Source of the DNA: Chryseobacterium fluminis
GTDB taxonomy: Bacteria > Bacteroidota > Bacteroidia > Flavobacteriales > Weeksellaceae
Length of the DNA stretch: 64,000 bases
Assembly (NCBI RefSeq): GCF_026314945.1
Contig: NZ_CP111121.1
Coordinates: 3,968,001 to 4,032,000 of the forward strand
Direction: 5' to 3'
Under the pieces are notes generated by a model, which was given only the letters and a program-made list of their open reading frames with translations, was not told where the DNA came from and did not search any database. Each line of letters starts with the position of its first letter. Position 1 is the stretch's first letter. This document shows, piece by piece, positions 1 to 8,984 of the stretch. The translations under genes were made by a program, and so were the position numbers.

Positions 1-53
1 TGTTAATTTTAAATTGTTTGTAATTATTGTAATGTGATTGGTTTAGATGCCTG

Positions 54-230
54 TTAAGCAATTCTTGTTTTTACCACAGTGTTTCCACCGCAAGAACACT
101 GTCCGCAAGACTGAGCCGCCGCCTGTAGGCTGTTGGTTCCCCCTTTAAGGCTGGTCATCTGCTCTTCCTGCAGTTTGCTGATTTGTTCTTTGTTGATCTG
201 TAAACCTTTGGTTAATTTGATTTTGTGCAT
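54..230 (-). CDS. GG-leader RiPP-like precursor peptide, copy 1
   Basis: This 58-residue peptide has a charged, helical-looking leader ending in LKGG at about residues 28-31, the double-glycine cleavage site of peptides processed by C39-peptidase exporters in known families. The core that follows has Ser/Thr and the cluster SCGQCSCGG, with three cysteines, and ends in KTRIA. Leaders of this style are typical of class I lanthipeptide-like and other GG-leader peptides in Bacteroidota. The ATG at 228-230 is preferred over an upstream in-frame ATG at 291-293, because translation from there would run through the spacer and the second copy has the same ATG. No modification enzyme or C39 transporter lies in view. 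The peptide may lie on the same transcript as the receptor gene at 551-2950. Confidence 0.75.
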   Translation of the reverse strand: MHKIKLTKGLQINKEQISKLQEEQMTSLKGGTNSLQAAAQSCGQCSCGGNTVVKTRIA

Positions 231-285
231 GATGTTAATTTTTAAATTGTTTGTAAGTATATAATGTGATTGGTGTAGATGTCTG

Positions 286-462
286 TTAAGCAATTCTTGT
301 TTTTACCACTGTGTTTCCACCGCAAGAACACTGTCCGCAAGACTGAGCCGCCGCCTGTAGGCTGTTGGTTCCTCCTTTAAGGCTGTTCATCTGCTCTTCC
401 TGCAGTTTGCTGATTTGCTCTTTGTTGATCTGTAAACCTTTGGTTAATTTGATTTTGTGCAT
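286..462 (-). CDS. GG-leader RiPP-like precursor peptide, copy 2
   Basis: This is a near-identical 58-residue paralogue of the peptide at 54-230. The proteins differ only at residue 26 (Asn here, Thr there), just before the SLKGG site, and the genes show three synonymous changes, so the duplication is recent or the core is held under selection. The Cys-rich core SCGQCSCGG and the tail KTRIA are the same. It starts 88 nt after the end of the receptor gene and on the same strand, so the order acyltransferase, receptor, peptide 2, peptide 1 is a plausible operon. A role as bacteriocin, signal or lanthipeptide-like product is inference from the leader type. Confidence 0.75.
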   Translation of the reverse strand: MHKIKLTKGLQINKEQISKLQEEQMNSLKGGTNSLQAAAQSCGQCSCGGNTVVKTRIA

Positions 463-550
463 GATGTTTAAATTTTAAAATGATTAGTTTCCGGTTATCT
501 TTTCAAGTCTTAAAACCTTTATTGGACCTTACTTGCAAGTATATTTCTGT

Positions 551-2950
551 TTAGTTAACTCTGTTTCTTTCGTCTTCGTTTCCGAAGTTTCTGTCCTGTG
601 CGGACTTCAGATTGTTGTTTCCGAACTTGTAGCTTAGAGAGATCCTGAAGCCTCTTGTGTCACCATAGCTTTTGAAGTCTGTCTTTACGCCATTGGATTC
701 GTAACTGATTACCGGTCTTTGTCCATTCAATAAATCCTGTCCGGTCACCGTTAAGGTTAATTTTTTATCCAGCAGTAAAAATTTCATCGAAATATCCAGG
801 ATATTCATCGTTGAGATATGAAAGATCTGATAACGGCCCGGCAGCTGCAATCCGTAGTTAATGCTGAAAAATGTCGTTTTCGATTTGTTCAGGGTAAAAT
901 CATTGTTTGAATAGAAATAGGCATTATAGCCATCAATGGACCGGATAACATCTGTTTTGGATTTTACATTCTGATAATTGATATTAAATCCCGTAAAACT
1001 GTTCCACCAGGACCATTTATTAAAGTTGTAATAGGTGGACACACCGATCTGATAGGTATTTGCATAGTTCAGAGGAGTACTTCTCGTGATATTGGTATTG
1101 GGATCCAGGATGGCCAGCTCCTGACTGAAATCGGATACCTGCGAATAATAAACCGATGAGGCCCACTTCTGGTTTCTGACATAGGAAAATTCCAGGTTAT
1201 CGATCACCGATGGTTTCAGAAAAGGGTTCCCTTCAGAATAATAATATGGGCTTGTACGGATCACAAAAGGATTCAGATATTCAAAGGTAGGTCTTCGGAT
1301 CCTCCGGCTGTAGTTGAGGGAAAAAGAATTCTGATCATTTGGGTTATACGTCACATAAGCGGTGGGAAAAAGTTTAACATAATCGTTTTTATTCGTCTGG
1401 TTAAGATTCTGAGAATACCCCGTTGTCTGGGTAGCTTCCATTCTCAGTCCTGCCTGGGTTTCCCATTTTTCACCCAGTTTTTTATTTGCCGAAACGTATA
1501 ATGCTTCATTATATTCTTTATAATTAAATACATTGGTCTGATCGGTGTTCAGCACGGGAACGCCCGTCTGTTGGTCAAATACGACCAGGTCATTATCCGT
1601 ATTGGTATAGGTATATTTTCCACCGAAGCTCAGATTTGCCCATTTCAGCGGCATTTCTACATCTACTTTTCCGGAGTAGTTTTCTATGCGGTTTACATTG
1701 GTATTGGTTGCTGAGAAAAAGCTCAGCGGAATGATGTTTTTCTGATTGTCGAGTTCATTGCCTGCAAAGAAACTGTAATCCCTTTTTTTATAATTGAAAT
1801 AATCAAAATCGGTTGTTATTTTTGTACCTGCAGTATCTATCTTAAAGGTATTGTACCAGTTTACAGAATTCATATCAGGCTTATTATTGGCCTCCACATC
1901 AGATGCGATATAGGAATTTACAGCGCCTGTTGTATTATTAATCCTTGTCGTCAGCGGACTGTTCGATGAGGTATCTTTTGTGAAACTTCCAAGATATTTA
2001 GCTCCGGTCGTCCAGGCTTCGCTGATTTTATAATCGATTCCAAATCCCAGGCCCAGGCTGCTTTCCTCAGACTTATTTTTTACATTCATTAACCAGAGTT
2101 CGTCAGGATAATAGATCTTGCTGTCGGAAGTGGTACGCAGTCTCTGGGAGTTGGTATTGGCAGAAACCTGTAATGACAGTTTGTTATAATTATAATTGAA
2201 TATTCCCTGAAGGCCGCCTCCCGCATACGTTTTCTGTGTATAAGACCCTCCGATATTGGCATTCCATGAGTTGGCCTTAGCTTTTTTTAGTTTAATATTG
2301 ATTAATCCGTTGTCCCCTTCCGCGTCGTATTTTGCCGGTGGGGTAGTGATCACCTCAATCGACTGGATATTGTCCGAAGGTATCGACCTTAATAAACCCG
2401 AAAGATCATCCTGCGACATTCTCTGGATCCTGTCATCGATCATCACCAGAACTTCCCCTTTTCCGACAATGGACACTTTTTCGTCCTGTACCCGGACCAA
2501 CGGAGTGGTTTTTAAAGCATCCAGAGCGGTTCCTCCTGTTGCAGACACCGAGTTTTCCACATTAAACACCAGGCGGTCCACTTTTCTCTCTACGAGTTTT
2601 TTCTTTTTACTCAGGGTAACTTCCTGAATTTCTTTGTTGGTAGCAGGGGTGTCTTTGATCGTGTAATTTTCCTTGATATTGCCATCTATCGTGATCCTGT
2701 TCTCCAATACCTGATTTCCGTTCAAAAAGATCTTCAGGGTATACGCATCATTTTTGGGCAGGCTGATGGTAAAATTTCCATTTTCATCGGTAAGCGCGGA
2801 ATAGTTGTTTTTATCTGCTGACAGCATCACTTCGGCATAGGGAATATTTTTCGCCTGTTCGTCAGATACTTTTCCCGAAATACTCTGAGCACTTAAGCTG
2901 ATGCTCATTCCTATGAAGGATAATAGTGATATTAAGTATTTCTGTGTCAT
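551..2950 (-). CDS. outer-membrane beta-barrel receptor (TonB-dependent-like, OMP_b-brl_3 type)
   Basis: This 799-residue protein has a signal peptide (about 1-21, ending LSAQ), a CarboxypepD_reg-like Ig-fold domain (about 22-100), a plug-like region (about 120-220, with VLVMIDDR and the stretch IQSIEVITTPPAKYDAEG) and a C-terminal barrel of some 560 residues. This architecture is that of the outer membrane beta-barrel family relatives of TonB-dependent receptors, larger than a simple porin but shorter than SusC. No SusD partner is adjacent. It lies between a GNAT-like synthase and two GG-leader peptides, and a CTACAC-N4-GTGTAG box lies 84-99 nt before its ATG, so it probably belongs to the same regulon. 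Its ligand is unknown; uptake or release of the island's peptide or acyl product is only a guess. Confidence 0.85.
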   Translation of the reverse strand: MTQKYLISLLSFIGMSISLSAQSISGKVSDEQAKNIPYAEVMLSADKNNYSALTDENGNFTISLPKNDAYTLKIFLNGNQVLENRITIDGNIKENYTIKDTPATNKEIQEVTLSKKKKLVERKVDRLVFNVENSVSATGGTALDALKTTPLVRVQDEKVSIVGKGEVLVMIDDRIQRMSQDDLSGLLRSIPSDNIQSIEVITTPPAKYDAEGDNGLINIKLKKAKANSWNANIGGSYTQKTYAGGGLQGIFNYNYNKLSLQVSANTNSQRLRTTSDSKIYYPDELWLMNVKNKSEESSLGLGFGIDYKISEAWTTGAKYLGSFTKDTSSNSPLTTRINNTTGAVNSYIASDVEANNKPDMNSVNWYNTFKIDTAGTKITTDFDYFNYKKRDYSFFAGNELDNQKNIIPLSFFSATNTNVNRIENYSGKVDVEMPLKWANLSFGGKYTYTNTDNDLVVFDQQTGVPVLNTDQTNVFNYKEYNEALYVSANKKLGEKWETQAGLRMEATQTTGYSQNLNQTNKNDYVKLFPTAYVTYNPNDQNSFSLNYSRRIRRPTFEYLNPFVIRTSPYYYSEGNPFLKPSVIDNLEFSYVRNQKWASSVYYSQVSDFSQELAILDPNTNITRSTPLNYANTYQIGVSTYYNFNKWSWWNSFTGFNINYQNVKSKTDVIRSIDGYNAYFYSNNDFTLNKSKTTFFSINYGLQLPGRYQIFHISTMNILDISMKFLLLDKKLTLTVTGQDLLNGQRPVISYESNGVKTDFKSYGDTRGFRISLSYKFGNNNLKSAQDRNFGNEDERNRVN

Positions 2951-3013
2951 GTCTTTTATTTATTTCAAAAGTATCAGGTTGTGTTTTCTTTCTTGCTACA
3001 CTGTTGGGTAGTC

Positions 3014-3655
3014 TTAGGCGATCTGCTGCAATACTACACTTTGGTGTAGGTCGCTCGCAGGTTTTGACATCAAATGGCAGTTTTTGTCAAGAAACCTTTT
3101 CAATCCGTTATAAGTCAGAAGAACAGCAATCGTTTCAGAGCCTAAATAATGAATCGGCTTGGCCAGAGTGATGGCTTCGATACCCATTAACTTCAAAACT
3201 TTTAAAAGCTTGGCATCACACTCCGCGATGGCAACAGAATTTTCATTTTGGCAAACTTCGTTAAGCGCATAAGCCATTAAAGTTTTGAAAACGCCGAACC
3301 CGGTTTTATCAATTCCTTTTTTGATGGCGAATCTTCCGATATGCCAGATATCGGTGCCTTTGTTTTTGATAATATCCTGAGGATTGATACTGAAAAGTTT
3401 TTCCAATGGCAGAACATCCGTACGATTCCATTTTAGCACCCTGATTGATCCATTAATTTTCTGATCGCTGTCGCGGGATACAAAAATTTTAGAATTATTA
3501 AAACTTTTTTCTTCCTGATAGATGTCATCTACTTCAGCCCTGAACTGCTCCGCGTCTGTGTCATTTTCGTGATGATTAAAATTCTCTGTAACAACGAATT
3601 CTGAGAGTTCGCGCAGGTCTTTATTACTTAAAGAACAAAAGTTAAAATATTCCAT
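3014..3655 (-). CDS. GNAT-fold acyltransferase, LuxI / N-acyl amino acid synthase-like
   Basis: This 213-residue protein has the spacing of autoinducer-synthase-like and N-acyl amino acid synthase-like GNAT proteins: an acidic segment, GSIRVLKW at 69-76, a P-L-x-x-x-F segment, and IGRFA at 106-110, comparable to the conserved Arg and E/C-x-R-F-A regions of LuxI-type enzymes. It lacks a signal peptide. It would transfer an acyl group to an amine, but donor and acceptor cannot be read from the sequence. It is divergent from a LuxR-type regulator, and each of the two genes has its own CTACAC-N4-GTGTAG palindrome, an arrangement reminiscent of luxI/luxR. The 3' end of the gene contains the box serving the downstream receptor gene. 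It could equally be an ordinary N-acetyltransferase. Confidence 0.55.
   Translation of the reverse strand: MEYFNFCSLSNKDLRELSEFVVTENFNHHENDTDAEQFRAEVDDIYQEEKSFNNSKIFVSRDSDQKINGSIRVLKWNRTDVLPLEKLFSINPQDIIKNKGTDIWHIGRFAIKKGIDKTGFGVFKTLMAYALNEVCQNENSVAIAECDAKLLKVLKLMGIEAITLAKPIHYLGSETIAVLLTYNGLKRFLDKNCHLMSKPASDLHQSVVLQQIA
3034..3049. promoter_or_regulatory. palindromic operator CTACAC-TTTG-GTGTAG (box 1)
   Basis: A perfect 6+6 inverted repeat with a 4-nt spacer lies 84-99 nt upstream of the receptor start at 2950 and inside the last codons of the acyltransferase gene. It is one of four copies within 2.4 kb, each in front of an island gene. The symmetric form fits binding by a dimeric HTH protein such as the LuxR-type regulator at 3780-4538. 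Confidence 0.75.
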
Positions 3656-3703
3656 ATTTTTATTATCTTTAGGTAAAATTATTTCACTGAATAGTAAATA
3701 ATG

Positions 3704-3719
3704 CTACACTTTTGTGTAG
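3704..3719. promoter_or_regulatory. palindromic operator CTACAC-TTTT-GTGTAG (box 2)
   Basis: This copy lies 49-64 nt upstream of the acyltransferase start (3655, minus strand). The position is close to that of box 4 before thiF, consistent with activation near the -35 zone. Only 12 nt separate it from box 3, so the divergent promoters may be controlled jointly. Confidence 0.75.
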
Positions 3720-3731
3720 ATTTGTTAAAGT

Positions 3732-3747
3732 CTACACTATAGTGTAG
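3732..3747. promoter_or_regulatory. palindromic operator CTACAC-TATA-GTGTAG (box 3)
   Basis: This copy is a fully symmetric 16-mer 33-48 nt upstream of the LuxR-type regulator start at 3780. It suggests autoregulation by the gene product, either positive feedback or repression; the sequence does not say which. Confidence 0.75.
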
Positions 3748-3779
3748 TCACAGGAAAATCCTCTTTTTAAAACTAAGCC

Positions 3780-4538
3780 ATGGAAGAAATAAATAAATTC
3801 TTTACAACAAAAAACAGTATCCAGAGTATCTCCGAGTCAGAAAGCAATCAGACCGCTGATTACTTAGAAGTCATTAAAGCTTTTTCGAGAATTACCTACA
3901 TGAGTGTGTACGTGATCGATTACCAGAAACAGAACTTCGAATATGTATCCGACAATCCTCTGTTTTTGTGTGATCATACCCCTCAGGAAGTAGAAACCAT
4001 GGGATATGCCTTTTATTTCAGACATGTGAAGAAAGAAGATCTGGAACTGCTCTTAAAGATCAATGAAGTAGGGTTCGATTTTTATGAGAATCTGCCTGTT
4101 GAAGATCGTAAACTATATACCATTTCTTACGATTTCCACTTGATTAACGAAAATAAGAATGCGGTCCTTATCAACCATAAGCTGACGCCGCTTTTCCTTT
4201 CCTCAGAAGGGAAAATCTGGAAAGCCATGTGTCTGGTATCCCTTTCACACAATCATCAGTCAGGAAACATTTCCATTGTAAAACAAGGAACCGATGAGAT
4301 CTGGAACTATGACCTCAGTGAGAGTAAATGGATAAAAGATGAGAAAATTAAACTCTCCGAAAGAGAGGTCGAAATCCTGCGTCTGTATGCACAGGGGCTT
4401 ACGATCAATGAGATCGCAGAAAAAATATTTGTGACAGGAGATACCGTCAAATTCCACAGAAGGAAACTGTTTGATAAAATGGGAGTCAACAATATTACGG
4501 AAGCAATGTCCTATGCTACCAGCTATAAATTGATATAA
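3780..4538 (+). CDS. PAS-like sensor / LuxR-type HTH transcriptional regulator
   Basis: This 252-residue protein has an N-terminal PAS-like domain (about 28-165) and a C-terminal LuxR-type HTH (about 190-252) with the diagnostic LSEREVEILRLYAQG, NEIAEKIF and TVKFHRRKLFDKM elements. There is no receiver-domain Asp pocket and no signal peptide, so it is likely a cytoplasmic one-component sensor. It is divergent from the LuxI-like acyltransferase and flanked by the ThiF gene, which ends only 8 nt away on the opposite strand. Four identical half-site palindromes around the island are its most likely binding sites. The ligand of the PAS domain is unknown; the product of the neighbouring synthase is a reasonable candidate by inference. 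Confidence 0.85.
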   Translation: MEEINKFFTTKNSIQSISESESNQTADYLEVIKAFSRITYMSVYVIDYQKQNFEYVSDNPLFLCDHTPQEVETMGYAFYFRHVKKEDLELLLKINEVGFDFYENLPVEDRKLYTISYDFHLINENKNAVLINHKLTPLFLSSEGKIWKAMCLVSLSHNHQSGNISIVKQGTDEIWNYDLSESKWIKDEKIKLSEREVEILRLYAQGLTINEIAEKIFVTGDTVKFHRRKLFDKMGVNNITEAMSYATSYKLI

Positions 4539-4546
4539 TCTAACTC

Positions 4547-5293
4547 TTAATCCGAAATGGCATTGATGTAGAACTGCGGAAACGTTTTAAAAGGCTTTCC
4601 GGTAGCAATTTTAAACATCACATGCGTGCACATTCCCGCAACGATCCATGAAGCGATGGATAATTGCGGCGGGGGAAGATTCTGCTGTTCTGTTTTGTAC
4701 TCATGGATGATGTTTTCGAGCCATTCATTCGGGCGTTCCCAGAACCGCAGGTATCCGGCGACATATTCGACCATTTTCAGCTCGTTGAAATTTTCATCCG
4801 TAAGGCTGTCCAGCGATAATCCTGTCGGCGTGATGACAGCAACCAGGCCTCCCCAGCCAAGATTGTAAGGATGTAAAATATGCAAGCCTTTTTCCTGGCA
4901 TATCTTGTCAAAAACGATAGGGATATCACTCGTGAAATCGAGCGCATTAATGGCAATGCCATGCCCTTCAATGATGTCGTGCACATTCTCATGGGTGATA
5001 AACTCTTTCCGGAACTGAATATTTGCTCTAGGATTAATGTCTTTCAACCGGTTATAGAGAGTCTCTGCCTTAAACGTAGAGATATCTTTATGAGTATAAT
5101 TCTGTCTGTTAAGGTTGGACTGTTCAATGGTGTCACCATCTACGATCGTAATATTTTCAAAACCAAAACGGAGGGCACATTCGGCAATATTGCTTCCGAT
5201 ACCGCTTCCGGCAAGTAATATCGGAATATTTTTTATCCTGTTCTGTTCTTCTTCGTGTACATAAAGTCTGTTTCGGGTGTATTGTGCTTCCAT
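4547..5293 (-). CDS. ThiF/MoeB/HesA-family E1-like adenylyltransferase
   Basis: This 248-residue protein shows the E1-like Rossmann features: GSGIGSN at 29-35, VDGD at 51-54, NLNRQN at 60-65 with the conserved Arg, and Lys75. Such enzymes activate a carboxyl terminus as an acyl-adenylate. No CxxC zinc pair and no clear catalytic Cys are seen, so it may only adenylate, as in the MccB branch of the family. The ATG at 5291-5293 is chosen over the upstream ATG at 5413, because the operator palindrome at 5340-5355 then falls in the promoter and not in the coding region. No ubiquitin-like or JAMM partner is next to it. By shared operators it belongs with the acyltransferase, regulator and receptor. 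Its substrate is unknown. Confidence 0.8.
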   Translation of the reverse strand: MEAQYTRNRLYVHEEEQNRIKNIPILLAGSGIGSNIAECALRFGFENITIVDGDTIEQSNLNRQNYTHKDISTFKAETLYNRLKDINPRANIQFRKEFITHENVHDIIEGHGIAINALDFTSDIPIVFDKICQEKGLHILHPYNLGWGGLVAVITPTGLSLDSLTDENFNELKMVEYVAGYLRFWERPNEWLENIIHEYKTEQQNLPPPQLSIASWIVAGMCTHVMFKIATGKPFKTFPQFYINAISD

Positions 5294-5339
5294 AACTGAT
5301 GCTTTGATACAAATGTAGGGGGATGTGACATGATACAAG

Positions 5340-5355
5340 CTACACTCTAGTGTAG
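5340..5355. promoter_or_regulatory. palindromic operator CTACAC-TCTA-GTGTAG (box 4)
   Basis: This copy lies 47-62 nt upstream of the preferred thiF-like start at 5293, almost the same distance as box 2 to its gene. It ties the ThiF gene to the same regulon as the receptor, acyltransferase and regulator genes. It also argues against the longer thiF start, which would place the palindrome inside the coding sequence. Confidence 0.75.
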
Positions 5356-8589: not shown

Positions 8590-8648
8590 ATGGAAAGTAG
8601 TGCATCGGGAAATAAATTTTGTATCTTCTATCACAGAATAATACAAAA

Positions 8649-8984
8649 ATGATAAAATGTATCGCCGTACTTTCCTTTTCTGTCCTGACAGCCAATTTGA
8701 GTGCCCAGAAGGTATTTTCCACCCGATATTCAAGCCAGGCAGAGGTAAAAGTTTTTGTGACGGAGTATGAAAGCCAGGCAGATCTGAAAGTCTATAAAGT
8801 AACGTATGACAGCCAGGCCGGAAACAACAATGGAAAATGGTTTTTCACCCAGTATGAAAGTCAGGCGGCGAAAAAAATATATTTTACCGACTACGAAAGC
8901 CAGGCAGATTTAAAAATATTTTTTGTAAAATACGACAGTCAGGCAGGGTGGAGGAATAAAGACAAACAACACCTGATGTATTAA
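8649..8984 (+). CDS. small exported YxSQA-repeat protein (DUF6150-like)
   Basis: This 111-residue protein has a 20-residue signal peptide (ending LSAQ) followed by six imperfect repeats of roughly 14 residues, each built on Y-x-S-Q-A, often continued as D-L-K-V-Y/F. The alternating hydrophobic pattern suggests short beta-hairpins stacked in tandem. The protein matches what is known as the DUF6150 family in Flavobacteriia; its function is not established. The ATG at 8649 is chosen because it opens the signal peptide; the in-frame ATG at 8619 adds ten polar residues. It is a single gene, isolated by a terminator before and a long hairpin after it. Confidence 0.75.
   Translation: MIKCIAVLSFSVLTANLSAQKVFSTRYSSQAEVKVFVTEYESQADLKVYKVTYDSQAGNNNGKWFFTQYESQAAKKIYFTDYESQADLKIFFVKYDSQAGWRNKDKQHLMY

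Follow-up and report, generated by a model that had tools for sequence, protein, structure and literature searches.

The left end of the window, a 64,000-nucleotide stretch of Chryseobacterium fluminis DNA (G000:C2:3968001-4032000, in a 5.07-Mb genome), carries genes for a receptor, an acyltransferase, a LuxR-type regulator, a ThiF enzyme and two short peptide precursors. We consider it probable, at roughly 0.8, that these genes represent a quorum-sensing cassette of the N-acyl-cyclolysine (ACL) type together with part of a class I lanthipeptide cluster that it drives. On the left the island extends some 10 kb beyond window base 1, and the window holds its right part only. The genes at the left end of the window are the following.

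54..230, minus strand: class I lanthipeptide precursor 2 (NF038153, 42.6 bits)
286..462, minus strand: class I lanthipeptide precursor 1 (NF038153, 43.7 bits, cut-off 22; TIGR04149 above its cut-off)
551..2950, minus strand: outer-membrane beta-barrel receptor, whose gene opens the output operon (PF14905, E 5e-94; PF00593)
3014..3655, minus strand: acyltransferase of 213 aa, FeeM/LuxI-like family, putative signal synthase (Pfam matches of its relatives; AlphaFold2 model)
3780..4538, plus strand: one-component LuxR-type regulator of 252 aa (PF00196 GerE, E 5e-17, residues 192-246)
4547..5293, minus strand: ThiF/E1-like adenylating enzyme of 248 aa, proposed signal cyclase (PF00899, E 2e-32; PDB 9egb/9egc/9egd, E 2e-104)

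Co-occurrence of the cassette genes

The cassette was followed in a genus sample of 118 genomes, which had been taken out of a larger group, in a phylum sample of 395 genomes, and in 80 individual loci (the best 80 of 119 found, many of them close relatives). The synthase was present in 23 of the 118 genus genomes and ThiF in the same 23; across the phylum sample the synthase occurred in 11 genomes, and ThiF in those 11 and in G344. A divergent luxR lay within 1.6 kb of the synthase gene in 78/80 loci (missing in L039 and L070), and thiF was adjacent in 63/80. By title, 78 of the loci carry Bacteroidota names or metagenome-assembled genome (MAG) labels; the others are a Cytophagales chromosome, within the phylum, and L060, a 6.5-kb MAG contig of Candidatus Zambryskibacteria.

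Downstream DNA extended beyond 9 kb in 66 of the loci, the remaining ones ending sooner. The window's LanB and LanC have relatives in 12/80 loci, and a full-length C39-ABC exporter occurs in 27/80. A scan of ten downstream proteins returned nonribosomal peptide synthetase (NRPS) modules (L041, L042), a radical SAM protein (L025), a CarbopepD_reg domain (L033), an AraC-type regulator together with two export proteins (L047), DUF7005 (L074), an O-antigen-ligase domain (L089) and, for L068, no match. As the synthase, LuxR and ThiF genes stay constant while the genes downstream of them vary widely, the most likely assignment puts ThiF with the signal and the peptides with the output. An earlier interpretation made from the DNA letters (the sequence-only reading), by which the synthase, the E1-like enzyme and the peptides would yield one peptide-derived product, is therefore unsupported. 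Its expectation that the synthase, ThiF and LuxR genes would co-occur in relatives, which it had set as a refutation test, is borne out by the 23 genomes.

Palindromic boxes and promoter geometry

Perfect copies of the palindrome CTACAC-N4-GTGTAG start at 3034, 3704, 3732 and 5340 in the window, and both these and the genes are as the sequence-only reading had described them. When up to two mismatches were allowed, the window held six boxes against 0.61 expected, a number reached by none of 100 shuffles. The whole genome has five perfect boxes, four of which fall within 2.3 kb. The pattern read backward has no site in this genome; it was found in 3/118 genus genomes and at four sites in total across the 80 loci. 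The boxes (no strand) and the elements next to them are listed below.

2966..2973, minus strand: −7 element TACTTTTG for the receptor operon, placed 22 nt past the 2996 box
2996..3011: one-mismatch box, the proximal one for the receptor operon, followed by a −7 element after 22 nt
3034..3049: perfect box, the distal one for the receptor operon, spaced 38 bp from its proximal partner and inside the end of the synthase gene
3674..3681, minus strand: −7-like element TAATTTTA of the synthase gene, 22 nt past the 3704 box and off consensus at its last base
3704..3719: synthase-proximal box, perfect
3732..3747: perfect box, the second in the interval between synthase and luxR, at a spacing of 28 bp to the first
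5310..5317, minus strand: −7 element TACATTTG of thiF, 22 nt beyond the 5340 box
5340..5355: thiF box, perfect

Between the start codon and the nearest box there are 48 bases for the synthase, 32 for LuxR and 46 for ThiF (ATG ending at 5293). For the receptor, the nearest box is the one-mismatch site at 2996 (45 bases), and the perfect 3034 box (83 bases) is its partner 38 bp upstream.

Among the 80 loci we found 190 boxes with at most one mismatch. All except one were located in three control regions (84 between luxR and the synthase gene, 77 around the synthase end and 28 before an adjacent thiF), and a single box lay in the other 1.40 Mb. Neighbouring boxes (up to two mismatches, within 100 nt) were spaced by 38 bp in 63/83 pairs and by 28 bp in 10. 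The boxes also follow the regulator. A close LuxR relative (E ≤1e-75) was present in 64/118 genus genomes, i.e. all 23 with the synthase and 41 without it, and a perfect box occurred in 61/64 LuxR-positive versus 2/54 LuxR-negative genomes (Fisher 3e-27; Fisher values here and below ignore kinship). When synthase-less genomes were taken by themselves, the box was found in 39/41 genomes with LuxR and in 2/54 without (Fisher 9e-22). G057 and G111 have LuxR without a perfect box, and G017 and G105 have a box without a close LuxR. The table counts genomes: G114 is box-positive through a site in L094, and the box at its close LuxR (L156) has one mismatch. On the shuffles, this table and the placement in the 80 loci we rejected chance palindromes, and the palindrome is not randomly spread. 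The comparison supports the view that this LuxR family goes with the palindrome, with or without a synthase, and the proposal of one regulon under LuxR is well supported by co-occurrence and promoter geometry. One site in the window's genome with one mismatch, C2:2505084, was set aside as chance; it lies at the start of an open reading frame (ORF; L010 5073-6572), and neither of its sides has a −7 element at 22 nt.

The −7 element of Bacteroidota is TAnnTTTG. This element started exactly 22 nt beyond the gene-nearest box in 29/76 synthase, 35/38 thiF and 36/49 cargo promoters, and the form TAnnTT(T/A) did so in 64/76, 35/38 and 46/49, respectively. Pooled, the exact element was at 22 nt in 100/163 promoters, and the next best offset (60 nt, which is 22 + 38) accounted for nine. 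At synthase, thiF and cargo promoters the box thus lies at a fixed distance upstream of the −7 element and replaces the usual −33 element, with its centre at about −42. This is the usual place of a LuxR activator. The geometry therefore suggests that the box stands in an activator's position and that the synthase, thiF and cargo genes would be activated.

Putative signal synthase, ThiF enzyme and LuxR regulator

A database search with the synthase returned 328 relatives at E ≤0.001 among 420 candidates. The named ones among the best 120 of the 328 belong to Chryseobacterium, Tenacibaculum, Bergeyella and other Bacteroidota, the nearest being Chryseobacterium. FeeM (PF21926) was matched by 23 of 39 aligned relatives at E ≤1 (best 1e-8) and LuxI (PF00765) by three of them (best 0.005); as FeeM fits better, an N-acyl-homoserine lactone (AHL) synthase proper was rejected. 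The AlphaFold2 model of the synthase is confident (pLDDT 86, pTM 0.83). A conserved stretch in the alignment, HIGRFA at residues 105-110, resembles the E-x-S-R-F-A stretch of LuxI.

Over the stretch compared, the structure 9egc shows 97% identity with the L042 ThiF (Tenacibaculum larymnensis) and 60% with the window ThiF, and it keeps all 48 residues that are invariant in 69 ThiF family members. That 9egb, 9egc and 9egd are part of the ACL paper described below is our guess; the PDB listing gives no such link.

The regulator matched only C-terminal LuxR and other helix-turn-helix models, with neither a PAS nor an autoinducer-binding domain match in Pfam. Its N-terminal part is called a PAS-like sensor on the word of the sequence-only reading and by eye.

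Probable lanthipeptide output operon

The left flank (L008) holds, on the same strand, four more precursors, two LanC-like cyclases, an oxidoreductase, a full-length LanB and a C39 peptidase-ABC exporter. LanB has both domains (PF04738 and PF14028), LanC is represented by two PF05147 matches, and the exporter combines PF03412 with PF00664 and PF00005. All six precursors, including the two that the window holds, have SCGQCSCGG in common following the GG site. The Cys-rich GG-leader peptides noted earlier are thus real, although they are to be corrected to class I lanthipeptide precursors in six copies. With LanA, a two-domain LanB, LanC and an exporter, the predicted proteins identify this as a class I lanthipeptide cluster. 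The luciferase-like (LLM) oxidoreductase (L008 13754-14704) has the MsnO8 family as its best NCBIfam match, below cut-off, and such an enzyme is also encoded in the lan operons of L048, L055, L059 and L067. By analogy with LanJ, we take it to be perhaps a reductase of dehydro residues.

L008 contains no further box with up to two mismatches and, on the lan-operon strand, no strict TTTG-N17-23-TAnnTTTG promoter, so a single long transcript that starts at the receptor promoter is likely to cover the lan operon. An attenuator-like hairpin ending in a U run (L008 17039-17118, minus strand; −17.6 kcal/mol, z −2.66, 3/200 shuffles as good) separates the last precursor gene from the first lanC and would lower enzyme relative to precursor expression. 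A 69-aa peptide adjoining the exporter (L008 7941-8150, minus strand) matches NF047798, the 'bacteriocin-like protein' leader of Chryseobacterium.

Solo LuxR regulators

The close LuxR relatives without a cassette were found in 41 of the 95 genus genomes that lack the synthase and ThiF, at 42 loci (two in G100). A box with up to two mismatches lay within 400 nt before luxR in all 42, and was perfect in 38; neither a synthase nor a ThiF gene occurred at any of them within the locus DNA examined. The exact TAnnTTTG was found 22 nt from the box on the side away from luxR in 33/42 solo loci and on the luxR side in none. The ykuD gene lay within 400 nt after luxR in 34/42, and a divergent ORF of at least 60 codons started within 200 nt in 19/42. 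One divergent product, a secreted-looking protein of 131 aa, had a single Pfam match, below cut-off. Its relatives alignable over at least 125 residues came from 15 solo loci, counting itself, with that of L092 cut short by a stop; five more loci have fragments, and in many solo loci the promoter was kept without an intact gene of this type.

In a tree of 93 LuxR proteins, 14 solos grouped with 5 cassette proteins (group of 19, support 0.65). A second close LuxR was present in 0/23 sender genomes, compared to a solo in 41/95 others (Fisher 2e-5). Of 20 box regions examined, 19 came from synthase-less genomes. A close LuxR lay beside the box in 14, the LuxR of L094 was only 35% identical to that of the window, and four had no LuxR (L099, L104, L107 and L106), the box of L106 being inside a 996-aa ORF. 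The L094 gene (4220-5016, G114), which has a perfect box 32 nt before its start and whose product fell outside the group of 19, may represent a second regulator group that uses the same box.

Two further sets of box-like sites were seen. Around position 5001 of L099, L104 and L107, the palindrome CTACACGAAAGTGTAG or its complement lies at the end of a 513-aa ORF, and after about 91 nt a gene follows whose product looks secreted; this may be coding conservation. In G025 (C1:3009890; L109 5001-5016), a perfect box lies about 30 kb from that genome's synthase gene, between two long ORFs that look NRPS-like by eye.

The fifth perfect box of the window's genome (L009 7828-7843; G000:C2:4403827-4403842) lies 132 nt before ykuD, without a luxR gene. 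On the flank facing away from ykuD it has TACTTTTA at a distance of 22 nt, and the first ORF there, 456 nt off, encodes a 548-aa NUMOD4 protein. A box in G042 is similarly placed; the two lie 132-134 nt before ykuD without luxR, with TACTTTTA or TATTTTTA 22 nt on the opposite side. We rejected ykuD as the target, as it is present in 23/23 sender genomes and a box (up to two mismatches, 1.2 kb upstream) in only two of them. The fifth box therefore reads as the scar of a lost solo luxR, which it probably is, and it is perhaps still a promoter; a search of the DNA beside it for remnants of the 131-aa divergent protein found none. In Chryseobacterium receptors outnumber senders, and we give about even odds to the reading that solo receptors eavesdrop on neighbours' signals and drive the divergent transcript, which at some of the loci would encode a small secreted protein, via the same box and 22-nt distance, gain of the cassette going with loss of the solo and leaving a box scar beside ykuD.

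Window positions 8619-8984 hold an ORF of 121 aa with a repeated YESQA-like unit.

Proposed mechanism and known systems

We propose that the FeeM/LuxI-like enzyme would N-acylate an amino acid, most likely L-lysine, and that ThiF would adenylate the carboxylate with ATP, leading to ring closure and a diffusible signal. This two-step chemistry has a precedent in the acyl-oxazolone pathways (oxz/tyz type), in which amino acids are acylated by TyzA and the ThiF homologue TyzB then uses ATP to cyclise the product (PMC10404671). The LuxR protein would bind the signal and act at CTACAC-N4-GTGTAG, the box ending 22 nt before the −7 element. It would turn on the synthase gene and thiF, which constitutes positive feedback, as well as the output operon of receptor, six precursors, two LanC, LLM oxidoreductase, LanB and exporter. 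The C39 peptidase-ABC exporter would cut the leader after GG.

ACL signalling, as reportedly described by Linares-Otoya et al. in Nature in 2025 (646:423), involves lysine acylation, ATP-dependent cyclisation and a transcription factor, AclR; the same work is said to report autoinduction and co-localised operons for secreted molecules. That system shares with ours the phylum and, reportedly, an acyltransferase, an ATP-dependent cyclising enzyme and a transcription factor beside operons for secreted molecules. Here, acyltransferase, ThiF-type cyclase and LuxR-type regulator occur together in the 23 genomes, and the co-localised operon is a lanthipeptide cluster in the window and carries exporters, NRPS or others elsewhere; the class I lanthipeptide cluster is what sets the window's output apart. 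The system is thus most likely of the published kind, with a lanthipeptide output. The sequence-only reading had called it a new type, which was right in kind, but ACL signalling in Bacteroidota was published in 2025.

The cassette can also be compared to the LuxI/LuxR AHL systems, in which a synthase gene lies beside that of a LuxR-type regulator, with a palindromic box near −42 and positive feedback, a logic that our cassette would share. In contrast to those systems, matches to FeeM are much more frequent in the window's synthase family than matches to LuxI, a second enzyme would be needed for ring closure, and the regulator has no Pfam match to the LuxR autoinducer-binding domain.

According to a 2026 review, N-acyl-cyclolysines were found in Bacteroidota, and samples of the gut and oral microbiome commonly contain the ACL system, which is described as widespread there (PMC13419125); PMC12561686 has the Nature article in its reference list. 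For the output, PMC9993889 reports that class I LanA, LanB and LanC of Chryseobacterium sp. OV715 gave a dehydrated, cyclised peptide in E. coli. That cluster has LanA, LanB and LanC and comes from the same genus, whereas the window system has six precursors, two LanC, an LLM oxidoreductase and a signalling cassette; 'LuxR' and 'ThiF' are absent from the main text of that paper.

Alternative explanations

The same circuit could carry another signal, such as an acyl-oxazolone of the oxz/tyz type, a lactone, or an N-acyl amino acid left without a ring. Lysine is only the presumed substrate of the synthase. N-acyl amino acids are the products of FeeM, and acyl-oxazolones are made by ThiF homologues with FeeM-like partners (PMC10404671), a likeness to our cassette. 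However, the oxazolone pathways described add a flavin-dependent nitroreductase-type desaturase. Neither the cassette genes of the window nor the scanned flank genes included one, and the window has a LuxR regulator and boxes instead. As the signal that PMC13419125 reports for Bacteroidota is moreover a ring-closed acyl-lysine, we regard a different signal as unlikely. A repressor that sits at the boxes and is released by the signal appears more doubtful still. Boxes also lie near the start of luxR (32 nt in the window), and a protein bound there could repress this gene; yet the constant spacing of the box upstream of the −7 element, where a −33 element would usually stand, is an arrangement that suits an activator, as for LuxR. 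Finally, the acyltransferase and ThiF could be lanthipeptide tailoring enzymes and not signal makers. Their genes adjoin the peptide genes, and E1-like enzymes act in other peptide pathways, but LanB/LanC relatives occur in 12/80 loci only (part of the loci end too soon), and the same cassette is found elsewhere with C39-ABC exporters (27/80), NRPS and others. Peptide tailoring by ThiF was set aside on this variation and is very improbable.

Several observations weigh against an ACL-type cassette that drives the lanthipeptide cluster. The window synthase itself has no Pfam or NCBIfam match at E ≤1, and its comparison with solved structures gave no sequence or profile match beyond chance. ThiF is non-adjacent in 17/80 loci, being elsewhere in the locus DNA examined in five and not there in 12. 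G083 carries the cassette and has no perfect box, and the exact −7 element was not found at 22 nt toward luxR in any of 65 loci. Both window precursors also pass the cut-off of TIGR04149 (rSAM-modified peptides); no radical SAM gene was found among the flank genes scanned. The relations counted are among relatives and are non-independent events. The ACL assignment, the most likely one, was made by system description.

Implications

Such signalling circuits are a very recent discovery in Bacteroidota. What may be new here is the promoter geometry, along with the solo receptors of 41 genomes that lack the synthase. Neither solo receptors of this kind nor the box geometry was found in literature searches on quorum sensing, LuxI, ACL, FeeM, oxazolones and lanthipeptides, with the primary ACL article outside that scope. 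The fixed distance from box to −7 element lets the targets of such a circuit be read from DNA alone, here a lanthipeptide cluster, and the box geometry hints at an inducer that could activate silent peptide clusters. With the solo receptors, eavesdropping among members of the genus becomes directly testable.

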